From NCBI RefSeq assembly GCF_947492715.1, contig NZ_CANLNS010000005.1, positions 124,001 through 188,000 on the forward strand: 64,000 nt of DNA. Direction: 5' to 3'. Made by a program: the position numbers and the translations under genes. The notes beneath the pieces are model-generated. The model made no database searches. It was not told the origin of the DNA and was given only the letters and a program-made list of their open reading frames with translations. Positions within the stretch are counted from its first letter, which is position 1. Each line of letters starts with the position of its first letter. Shown here one piece after another: positions 7,140-9,144 of this stretch. Source of the stretch: an uncultured Psychroserpens sp. (GTDB taxonomy: Bacteria > Bacteroidota > Bacteroidia > Flavobacteriales > Flavobacteriaceae).

Positions 7140-7164
7140 TAGTTAGGAATCCTAACTATATTTA
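7140..7164 (+). promoter_or_regulatory. 19-bp palindromic operator overlapping a promoter -7 element
   Basis: TAGTTAGGA-A-TCCTAACTA at 7140-7158 is a perfect inverted repeat with 9-base arms. It fills the spacer and touches the -7 element TATATTTA (7157-7164) of a promoter for the glutaredoxin-like gene. A core of the same type recurs at 7451-7463 and, imperfectly, at 8494-8506 before the MarR gene. It is therefore most likely the binding site of that MarR protein acting as repressor (inference). Confidence 0.65.
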
Positions 7165-7200
7165 CAAAGCAATAATGCAAAATCAAAAACAAAGAATCTT

Positions 7201-7434
7201 ATGAGTAAATCAATTTTTTATCACGCTGGCTGTTCTGTTTGTGTGAGCGCAGAGCATGACATCGTAAATTTAGTAGGACAAGACAACGTAGAAATTGTCA
7301 ATATTGGGGAAGATAGATCACGAATCCCAGAAGCCGAAGCAGCAGGTGTCGAATCAGTTCCGGCCTTAGTAACGCCAAACGGTCACGCTCTCCATATTAA
7401 TTTTGGAGCCTCAATGGCAGACGTAAAAGGCTAA
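7201..7434 (+). CDS. glutaredoxin/thioredoxin-like small protein
   Basis: 77 residues, no signal peptide. The N-terminus reads as a beta strand followed by a redox-type CSVC motif (residues 11-14), and a likely cis-proline follows in VESVPALV, which together outline a minimal thioredoxin fold of the glutaredoxin/NrdH size class. It probably acts as a cytoplasmic thiol-disulfide carrier, with the partner unknown. It is preceded by a perfect 19-bp palindrome over its promoter and followed by a second copy of the palindrome core. Both sites tie it to the MarR regulator 1 kb downstream. Confidence 0.7.
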   Translation: MSKSIFYHAGCSVCVSAEHDIVNLVGQDNVEIVNIGEDRSRIPEAEAAGVESVPALVTPNGHALHINFGASMADVKG

Positions 7435-7450
7435 TTTTTAATCAATATAG

Positions 7451-7463
7451 TTAGGACTCCTAA
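7451..7463. promoter_or_regulatory. second TTAGGA-n-TCCTAA palindrome
   Basis: TTAGGA-C-TCCTAA is a perfect 13-bp inverted repeat between the glutaredoxin-like gene and the secreted-protein gene. Its right part can also pair with GGAGTC at 7471-7476 to form a weak hairpin. No good -7 element was found close to it, so it may act as a roadblock or serve an unseen promoter. Confidence 0.55.
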
Positions 7464-7502
7464 TACAAAAGGAGTCTTGGCTATTCTAAATCAAAAGGAA
7501 TA

Positions 7503-8225
7503 ATGAAAACAATAAGTTTATCAATAGCAATAGTATTTATTTTAAGTACAACATGGTCTTGTGCGCAGGATAATCCATACAACAATGCAGATTTCAAGAT
7601 TGAAGATGTTCGTGTGACTCATAACGCAGATTTAAGTTTAACTGTTTGCGAAATTGACGTAAATGGTAAGGCAGCACATACAACTCCAATAAAAGCTGGA
7701 CAACTAGATGGTGCTCCAGTTTTAGGTTATGTATTTCCTACCTCCTTAAAACCTACAGATGTTGGTTTTAACCAAACCAATGGGATAGTAGCATTGGCTT
7801 TAACTTCGCATCCCGATTTTGATGACACCCCATTATGGGATGAAAATAATGACAAAATATATGATAACGACGGTATTGTGTGGCATCCGCATTGGGTTGT
7901 CTTGCACGAAGATAAAAGAGTGGCTGGTGGGCTCTCGGTTAAGCAGTTTAAGAAAGCAGATAAAACAGTTGTTTTGCCTCCAACAAATCCAGGAATGCCT
8001 ATGTACATGGATTCTCCAGGTTATGCCGTAGTAGCAAATGCCAATACAATTAAAGTCATTGTACCAGATTATAGAATTAACAATCAAATCAATTTTAACT
8101 ACGATGGTGTTACGGCTTTCATGAAAGTGAATACGAGCAATGATAATCTACCAATGTTAGGTGTATATGACGTGTTTAGTGTGGCTAGCGGAGATTTGTC
8201 ATTACCTTATAAAGTGAAGAAATAA
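7503..8225 (+). CDS. secreted protein of unknown function in the MarR/DUF2024 island
   Basis: 240 residues with an N-terminal signal sequence. The end of the hydrophobic stretch reads TTWSCAQD, which could be a weak lipobox at Cys20 or a signal peptidase I site. The mature part is predicted beta-rich, with a DENNDKIYDNDG stretch and an adjacent HPHWV motif that might bind a metal. I do not recognise the family. Its stop codon overlaps the start of the DUF2024 gene by one base (TAATG), so the two are translationally coupled. A TTAGGA-type palindrome lies about 50 bases upstream. A role linked to the redox or metal signal read by the MarR protein is a guess. Confidence 0.75.
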   Translation: MKTISLSIAIVFILSTTWSCAQDNPYNNADFKIEDVRVTHNADLSLTVCEIDVNGKAAHTTPIKAGQLDGAPVLGYVFPTSLKPTDVGFNQTNGIVALALTSHPDFDDTPLWDENNDKIYDNDGIVWHPHWVVLHEDKRVAGGLSVKQFKKADKTVVLPPTNPGMPMYMDSPGYAVVANANTIKVIVPDYRINNQINFNYDGVTAFMKVNTSNDNLPMLGVYDVFSVASGDLSLPYKVKK

Positions 8226-8488
8226 TGAGAGTTTCAGTTTGGGATACTTATGTGAAACGCGATGATGGAAATGTAATGCATTTTGACATTCTCGTATCGA
8301 GCACGACAACTGATGAAGCTACAATTTTTAGCTTCGGAAATGACTATTTAAAAAGCAAATCCATTTATAATAAGATGTTATCGACAAAAGAATGTCGTTT
8401 GTGTCATATGGAACAAGCAACGGAAGACGTCGAAAAAGAAATTTTAAAAAAGGGCTATTTTATTATCGAAATGGAAAATTGTAATTAA
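8225..8488 (+). CDS. DUF2024 family protein
   Basis: 87 residues. The N-terminal RVSVWDTYVKRDDGNVMHFD and the C-terminal CRLCHMEQA...IIEMENC arrangement match the small DUF2024 family, whose structure is known but whose function is not. The CRLCH motif and a further Cys near the C-terminus suggest metal binding or redox sensitivity. Coupled to the upstream secreted protein by a one-base overlap. Downstream there is a hairpin with a T-run (8511-8538), then the MarR gene. Confidence 0.85.
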   Translation: MRVSVWDTYVKRDDGNVMHFDILVSSTTTDEATIFSFGNDYLKSKSIYNKMLSTKECRLCHMEQATEDVEKEILKKGYFIIEMENCN

Positions 8489-8493
8489 TTTAA

Positions 8494-8511
8494 TTAGGAT
8501 GACTAACTTTG
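8494..8511 (+). promoter_or_regulatory. MarR gene promoter with imperfect operator
   Basis: TAACTTTG at 8504-8511 is an exact match to the Bacteroidetes -7 consensus TAnnTTTG. The imperfect palindrome TTAGGATGACTAA (8494-8506) overlaps it, which suggests autorepression. A TTG at 8479-8481 could serve as -33 element, though its 22-base spacing is longer than usual. Confidence 0.6.
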
Positions 8512-8538
8512 TCCCGCAATTAAATGCGGGACTTTTTT
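8511..8538 (+). terminator. hairpin with T-run immediately before the MarR start codon
   Basis: GTCCCGCA (8511-8518) and TGCGGGAC (8525-8532) form a perfect 8-bp GC-rich stem with a 6-base loop, followed by six T residues. It should end transcripts of the DUF2024 operon. The predicted MarR start site (about 8516) lies inside the first arm, so MarR's own transcript would not fold this stem. Confidence 0.7.
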
Positions 8539-9144
8539 ATGAAAGACAACAGTATTTTTAATCCAGATCAGCAACAAAAAGACTTATCAAGTAAAATTGT
8601 TACAGGGCTTGAGCGCATTTCTGAAGTGTTTAAAATACTACTTTGGGAGAAATCAAAAGTAGTAGGTTTGAGTCCAATTCAAATTCAAATTCTAGTTTTT
8701 ATATCCTTTCATAAGAGTGATTTGTGTAATGTAAGTCATTTAGCCAAAGAATTTAATGTGACTAAACCAACCATTAGTGATGCCATTAAAATTCTAAATA
8801 AAAAAGGCTTAGTTATTAAAGACTATTCTACAATAGATAGTCGCAGGTATAATATTCAATTATCACCTTCAGGAAAAGACATCATTGCTCAAGTTCATGA
8901 TTTTGCAAATCCACTTAAAACGCAATTAGATCATTTTGAGCAATCTGATTTAGAAGGTTTATTTAGTACATTAAGTGAGCTTATTTATAAGTTGAATAGA
9001 ATAGGACTATTAAGTGTTCAGCGTACCTGTTTTGGCTGTAAGTTTTATCAAAAACATACAACGTCAGATTATTGTAGTTTGCTTGAAAAAGAATTACTGA
9101 GTGAAGCGATTAGACTTGATTGTCCTGAGTTTGAAGAGAAGTAG
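8539..9144 (+). CDS. MarR family regulator with C-terminal four-cysteine cluster
   Basis: About 201 residues: an N-terminal dimer helix, a winged helix-turn-helix (SHLAKEFNVTKPTISDAIKI is the recognition region) and a wing containing DSRRYN, then a C-terminal extension with the spacing C-X2-C-X11-C-X15-C (residues 164, 167, 179, 195). Ordinary MarR proteins are ~145 residues and lack this tail, which looks like an iron-sulfur or zinc site. An alternative ATG at 8524 falls inside the terminator stem, so 8539 is preferred. Three related palindromes at 7140, 7451 and 8494 mark its likely regulon: glutaredoxin-like protein, secreted protein, DUF2024 and itself. Confidence 0.85.
   Translation: MKDNSIFNPDQQQKDLSSKIVTGLERISEVFKILLWEKSKVVGLSPIQIQILVFISFHKSDLCNVSHLAKEFNVTKPTISDAIKILNKKGLVIKDYSTIDSRRYNIQLSPSGKDIIAQVHDFANPLKTQLDHFEQSDLEGLFSTLSELIYKLNRIGLLSVQRTCFGCKFYQKHTTSDYCSLLEKELLSEAIRLDCPEFEEK

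Follow-up and report, generated by a model that had tools for sequence, protein, structure and literature searches.

A conserved four-gene cassette with shared palindromes and a candidate MarR-type repressor carrying a four-cysteine tail

Our question was whether four small co-oriented genes (GRX, SEC, DUF2024 and MarR, 7201-9144) in the 64-kb window C5:124001-188000 of a 4.2 Mb genome form one regulated unit with the three similar palindromes that lie among them, and what signal such a unit would answer to. The window is the whole stretch of DNA that was analysed. We put the chance at about one half that this is a self-contained MarR repressor cassette, whose regulator senses nitrosative or oxidative stress through a C-terminal tail of four cysteines (Cys4). 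The original prediction of a four-gene cassette with shared palindromes is confirmed, as the sites are in place and recur at matching positions in relatives. Judging from this recurrence, the cassette and its sites are real and old.

The palindromes do not give this answer from the window by themselves. The pattern TTAGGAnTCCTAA is found exactly at sites 1 and 2, and site 3, TTAGGATGACTAA, has two mismatches to it. The genome holds three exact copies, two of them being sites 1 and 2, 308 bp apart, and the third (C4:60263) lying inside a 224-codon reading frame. Palindromes with up to two mismatches are not enriched in the window (7 observed versus 4.16 expected), nor are matches to TTAGGAnTCCTAA with at most one mismatch enriched genome-wide, where 16 in total (3 exact and 13 others) compare with 47 for the reversed control pattern. 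The reality of the sites was decided by comparison across genomes. As for further regulon members in the same genome, the third exact site and the one-mismatch site C1:299106 (L004) both lie in open reading frames, the other 12 one-mismatch sites falling outside this check; that MarR is a local regulator is one possible reading.

The comparison covered 134 deduplicated loci, with mononucleotide shuffles as the null. Upstream of GRX, 125 regions contain the pattern TTAGGAnTCCTwA exactly in 92 cases, with one mismatch in 14, with two in 8 and in a worse form in 11, versus 0.0 exact and 0.05 one-mismatch matches in the shuffles. This counterpart of site 1 mostly lies 50-65 bp before the GRX start codon. 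Around the MarR start, 77 of 126 regions hold TTAGGAnnnCTAA without a mismatch (0.05 in shuffles), a handful of them as site-2-type copies further upstream, and an exact TTAGGAnTCCTwA follows GRX in 57 of 115, a count that includes site 3 where MarR comes next. The original prediction hinged on finding the palindrome beside DUF2024 in other genomes, and it is present there in many genera of the family. As far as sequences can tell, the case that MarR would be the repressor acting at these sites is strong. Loci L156, L164 and L171-L173, whose MarR is 42-47% identical to that of the window, have palindromes that depart from the usual form, for instance TTAGTTTAACTAA, a change that co-evolution of repressor and operator would predict; against this, equally divergent MarRs (e.g. 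L106, L142 and L149) retain the usual operator.

The genes were followed through 299 genomes of the same family, where GRX (E<=1e-8) was found in 63, MarR (E<=1e-20) in 69 and DUF2024 in 42, 41 of them above the cut-off. GRX and MarR are both present in 62 genomes and are adjacent on the same strand in 61 of these, and DUF2024 accompanies GRX in 38 of 41. The core of the cassette is GRX plus MarR, and DUF2024 and SEC are optional cargo. This refines the earlier interpretation, which is otherwise supported by the conservation of both palindromes and gene order. Among 152 loci picked for at least one cassette gene, and not deduplicated, 58 have the order GRX-SEC-DUF2024-MarR, 37 GRX-MarR, 28 GRX-DUF2024-MarR, 10 GRX-SEC-MarR and 19 another order. 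The order is kept in relatives while the outer flanks differ: RecQ and a cyclophilin/FKBP protein, which flank the cassette in the window, recur in 1 of 40 loci (L063; not every stretch reaches far enough to include them) and, of the 134 deduplicated loci, in 7-8. The Psychroserpens records L103 and L076 are the closest in the cassette genes among the named loci compared.

Table 1. Features of the cassette, in window coordinates.
Feature	Position	Strand	Remarks
Site 1, perfect 19-bp palindrome TAGTTAGGAATCCTAACTA, putative operator upstream of GRX	7140-7158	.	
Putative sigma-A -7 box of the GRX promoter, TATATTTA	7157-7164	+	consensus TAnnTTTG, from the accessible part of PMC9723704
GRX, 77-aa thioredoxin-like protein with CSVC motif	7201-7434	+	relative of PDB 2k8s
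Intercistronic hairpin of the messenger RNA (mRNA), 15 bp, 8-nt loop, site 2 in the 5' arm	7447-7484	+	
Site 2, perfect 13-bp operator-like palindrome TTAGGACTCCTAA	7451-7463	.	
SEC, 240-aa secreted protein, signal-peptide-like N-terminus, HPDFDD and WHPHW	7503-8225	+	
DUF2024 protein (PF09630), CRLCH and C-terminal Cys	8225-8488	+	E 3e-31; 2hfq E 1.2e-17
Site 3, putative operator TTAGGATGACTAA, overlaps marR -7-like box	8494-8506	.	
Putative marR -7 box TAACTTTG	8504-8511	+	transcription start ~8516 predicted
Terminator-like hairpin (8511-8532) and six-T run (8533-8538)	8511-8538	+	left arm spans predicted marR start
MarR-type regulator, 201 aa, C-terminal C-x2-C-x11-C-x15-C (Cys 164, 167, 179, 195)	8539-9144	+	

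What kind of regulator MarR is can be judged from its matches. It passes the winged-helix models PF12802 (MarR_2, E 5.5e-10; 39.7 bits versus a cut-off of 27) and PF01047 (30.8 versus 24.6), and it stays below each of the NCBIfam equivalogs compared (HpaR 32.1 versus 121.2, OhrR 25.3 versus 200, AdcR 25.6 versus 175 and SlyA 24.8 versus 120). It also falls short of the Rrf2 model, scoring 16.6 bits versus 30 over residues 54-97 only. Alignment with relatives makes ATG 8539 a likelier start than 8524. The structural model (mean predicted local distance difference test, pLDDT, 83) shows a MarR fold, followed by a short tail of three strands that holds the cysteines and is of low to moderate confidence. 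Its best Foldseek hits are to MepR, the hits listed align about 122-152 of the 201 columns, and the Pfam and NCBIfam matches listed end before the Cys4 extension. Model and alignment used 46 of 70 reference sequences and that of the window, and the Cys4 tail is invariant in the 47 aligned MarRs. We infer that the tail may be a zinc or iron-sulfur site, and the thiol, metal or electrophile signal of the original prediction would fit such an invariant tail.

The other products are also marked by conserved Cys or His motifs. GRX falls below the Pfam cut-offs (Thioredoxin_3 16.6 versus 24.8 bits, Glrx-like 15.6 versus 26), and its Cys11, Cys14 and VPA are invariant in 11 sequences. DUF2024 scores 107.6 bits versus 27 over positions 1-81 of the 81 in PF09630, and five DUF2024 proteins compared keep the CxxCH and the C-terminal Cys. 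For SEC no family model above cut-off and no solved relative were found; in a comparison of nine SEC proteins, all retain HPD-[FM]-[DE]-D, WH-x-HW and DSP, a pattern that suggests a metal site. The predicted SEC fold (mean pLDDT 73, no PDB match at E<=0.001, top hits antibody-like) was not interpreted. A search of phages for DUF2024, with the Enterobacter copy as query, gave no match.

Further genes are seen in and around the cassette. A gamma-glutamyl cyclotransferase/AIG2-like gene lies between DUF2024 and MarR at L117:6633-6995, L142:2050-2412, L151:7401-7814 and L088:6553-6906, assigned to PF06094 for L117 and L142, and we read it as further optional cargo. In L072 and L068 DUF2024 is present without GRX or MarR on the examined stretch, and that of L072 adjoins Rrf2, ferredoxin, hemerythrin and globin-like genes.

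The positions of the sites suggest how such a repressor could work. MarR would bind TTAGGAnTCCTwA at site 1, which abuts the GRX -7 box from the upstream side, and also site 3, which is less symmetric and overlaps the -7 box of the marR promoter; because it would be bound at both, GRX-SEC-DUF2024 and marR itself would be repressed. The Cys4 tail, holding zinc or an iron-sulfur cluster, would be the sensor, and its modification by NO-derived (nitric oxide-derived) or other reactive species would release MarR from the DNA. The proteins then produced, the thioredoxin-like protein, the Cys/His protein DUF2024 and the secreted His-rich protein, might repair or scavenge damage. TATATTTG is common at the GRX promoter position in relatives. 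It had been proposed that two of the three palindromes overlap -7 elements: this holds for site 3, which lies over TAACTTTG, but site 1 only touches TATATTTA with its end, the remainder being upstream. At site 2 a clear promoter was not seen in the window.

A closer look at the start of marR adds a second element to this picture. According to the accessible part of PMC9723704 the -7 box spans -12 to -5 relative to the start, so that from TAACTTTG marR transcription would begin at about 8516, within the hairpin's left arm. Folding the full stretch gives -15.2 kcal/mol, versus -2.1 for an RNA that begins at 8516. From promoter geometry and folding we infer a promoter nested in a terminator, in which the hairpin would stop read-through RNA from the operon and RNA from the marR promoter, being without most of the left arm, would escape. 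The survey of leaders took in 97 loci whose site-3-like match has at most one mismatch, and 69 of them were kept (leader 20-50 nt, fold below -7 kcal/mol), a choice of loci that itself favours paired stems. In these the stem positions vary, pairing is maintained and T-rich stretches come after; in the remaining 28 such a hairpin is missing, the leader is longer, or an earlier ATG shortens it. A generic terminator repeat was rejected as an explanation, given that TCCCGC(4-10)GCGGGA occurs once in the genome, at the marR leader. If it works in this way, the nested arrangement before marR would be a compact insulation device.

Site 2 is a harder case. Its palindrome is conserved, as its earlier assignment as an operator would have it, but it doubles as an arm of an mRNA hairpin, which leaves that role uncertain. 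In the window this hairpin folds with -20.7 kcal/mol (z -5.1) and includes some G-U pairs. By a strict motif the second arm comes after the palindrome in 33 of the 63 loci where SEC or DUF2024 is next, and in 35 of 88 once loci with MarR next are included (0.24 expected in shuffles); the window's own arm is omitted from the count owing to its G-U pairs. In 34 of the 35, the free base at the centre forms a pair with its counterpart (T-A 19, T-G 5, G-C 4, C-G 4, G-T 2), while permuted partners give 22.2 paired on average and never reached 34 in 100,000. We would put it at just short of an even bet that site 2 is an mRNA hairpin only, acting between GRX and the following gene in processing, stability or partial termination, and not an operator. 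In addition to the frequency of the second arm, the pairing of the central base and the 15 pairs of the window hairpin, the hairpin persists where the palindrome is lost (L050, L052 and L061) or degenerate (L042). However, seven loci (L053, L059, L063, L065, L071, L073 and L078) keep the palindrome without a second arm, and the related sequences behind these counts are not independent. No known RNA family was found at gathering level in the 5 loci tested, and two sub-threshold small RNA matches in the window were taken as chance.

What the cassette would respond to has to be approached through its neighbours, and of several readings of the signal NO is the best. Genes for RIC, hemerythrin, Rrf2, ferredoxin or globin, by cluster name, lie near the cassette in 11 of the 134 loci (L038, L040, L045, L056, L070, L072, L082, L091, L111, L125 and L129). 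Domain models back RIC, hemerythrin, Rrf2 and ferredoxin for the proteins tried from L056, L072 and L125; the globin model is above cut-off in L082 and L125, below it in L129 and without a match in L056. A relative of the group III truncated haemoglobins (2ig3, E 2e-11) is encoded at L129:6578-6952, after DUF2024 and before MarR, and the frames overlap. In Hymenobacter, DUF2024 and MarR are grouped with hmpA, Rrf2, catalase and protoglobin; in T. thermophilus JL-18 a nitrite reductase lies some 1.6 kb from P460-MarR, with a cbb3-type oxidase subunit and Rrf2 nearby; and in Phaeobacter nirK is about 5.5 kb from MarR. Across the family, nirK passes its cut-off in 23 of the 63 GRX-bearing genomes versus 30 of the 236 others (p=5e-5), RIC is found in 41 of 63 versus 82 of 236 (p=2e-5) and katG in 49 of 63 versus 184 of 236 (p=1), comparisons which ignore phylogeny among genomes that are not independent.

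Besides that limit, a number of observations speak against NO. In the genome of the window itself no RIC and no nirK were found, katG being present, and there is no NO-specific protein among the nine window proteins scanned. RIC is near the cassette in 6 of the 134 loci, and within 6 kb of it in 2 of the 41 family genomes that have both (0.13 expected), perhaps from one lineage. The Rrf2 beside L056 scores 30.6 bits versus the NsrR cut-off of 182, the Phaeobacter locus is without the operator core, and several MarR relatives lie near peroxide or superoxide genes. A general oxidant or electrophile switch with an OhrR-like job, in which peroxide, hypochlorite or reactive sulfur would oxidise the tail cysteines and the NO link would be incidental, seems to us rather unlikely. 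It can draw on tpx beside MarR in Nostoc, a redoxin and an OsmC-fusion gene in Sphingopyxis, catalase, superoxide dismutase, TlpA and peroxidase-related genes in rhizobia and Deinococcus, and the thiol-type proteins in the cassette, yet katG, the sole peroxide gene compared, is equally frequent with and without GRX where nirK and RIC are enriched. We consider it improbable that the tail senses the level of a metal (zinc, copper or iron) which the Cys/His proteins would bind. The Cys4 tail, the CxxCH and C-terminal Cys of DUF2024 and the conserved His of SEC would suit this, as would an archaeal DUF2024 protein listed as metal-binding in the accessible part of PMC6393860 and a four-helix copper-binding gene about 6 kb from the Sinorhizobium MarR; weakly against it, visual inspection of the 40 neighbour clusters listed, most of them without tool annotation, picked out no metal exporter or metal chaperone.

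Loci in other phyla, reached through plasmid searches, show how far the regulator and its site may extend. The core TAGGAnTCCTA (at least 9 of 10) occurs 16 times in 21 whole plasmid loci, 13 times without a mismatch, and its reversed control 7 times. Fifteen of the 16 precede MarR, SEC, GRX, tpx, DUF2024, P460 or TlpA genes, for example in Nostoc (L202:5285, 5947), Thermus oshimai (L195:7444), Sinorhizobium (L201:6973) and Rhizobium (L199:5483, 9876), and one (L208:12463, 9/10) is inside an Rrf2 gene. MarR relatives accompanied by this core occur in Alphaproteobacteria, Thermus/Deinococcus and Nostoc. No core was found in 8 of the 21 loci: the gammaproteobacterial L187, L188 and L192, L190 with an imperfect version, and L191, L193, L197 and L204. 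All 18 annotated plasmid-borne MarRs have the tail C-x2-C-x(8-25)-C-x(8-25)-C, L191, L193 and L200 being without an annotated MarR. In Enterobacter sp. 638 and P. aeruginosa GRX-DUF2024 are together, divergent from MarR, with TATCGAnTCGATA-like palindromes instead.

Taking these loci together with the family, we tentatively propose, while leaning against it, a phylum-spanning family of Cys4 MarRs whose tail, possibly with an iron-sulfur cluster, would sense NO. It would use the one core TAGGAnTCCTA in Bacteroidota, Deinococcota, Cyanobacteria and Alphaproteobacteria and swap its cargo (GRX, DUF2024, SEC, truncated haemoglobin, cytochrome P460), and in Bacteroidota the marR promoter would be nested in the upstream terminator arm and the operator reused as an mRNA hairpin.

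Two other features of the distant loci were recorded. A Rho-binding antiterminator gene follows GRX-DUF2024 in the gammaproteobacterial L187 and L188, where MarR is divergent. MOSC-domain genes recur near MarR/SEC genes on plasmids of several phyla (L190, L197, L198, L199, L202 and L206).

No description of the GRX/SEC/DUF2024/MarR set was found in searches of an open-licence library, although subscription papers could hold one, and the same searches brought up DUF2024 in a single paper, no mention of the operator strings and no pathway for the 2k8s protein. GRX matches this thioredoxin-named structure over its full length (E 2e-23). We take 2hfq and 2k8s to come from Nitrosomonas europaea. 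The product of 8225-8488 is a clear member of DUF2024 (PF09630; PDB 2hfq), and what differs from the family as it stands is that a family with no assigned function here gains a regulator, an operator and partners. For DUF2024 and for the secreted HPDFDD/WHPHW family, both without known function, this gives a direct question on nitrosative or oxidative stress. With its short length and its conservation across phyla, the operator would allow regulons to be predicted by pattern.

Compared with known regulators, the cassette MarR shares with the autorepressors OhrR, MepR and SlyA the winged-helix fold and short palindromes at its own and target promoters, and differs in the C-terminal Cys4 extension, which lies beyond the matched regions. 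CioR of Chromobacterium violaceum is likewise a MarR-family repressor of its own stress operon, cioRAB, but it is of the GbsR type, controls cytochrome bd and is induced by cyanide, according to the accessible part of PMC11837568. NsrR, the NO sensor of the Rrf2 family, is similar in the proposed role of an NO-responsive repressor with a Cys-ligated centre, and some cassette loci are beside Rrf2, RIC and globin genes; it differs in protein family, operator and Cys spacing, the centre of the cassette MarR being putative. If the NO reading is true, NsrR would be joined by a sensor of a new type in the Cys4 MarR.

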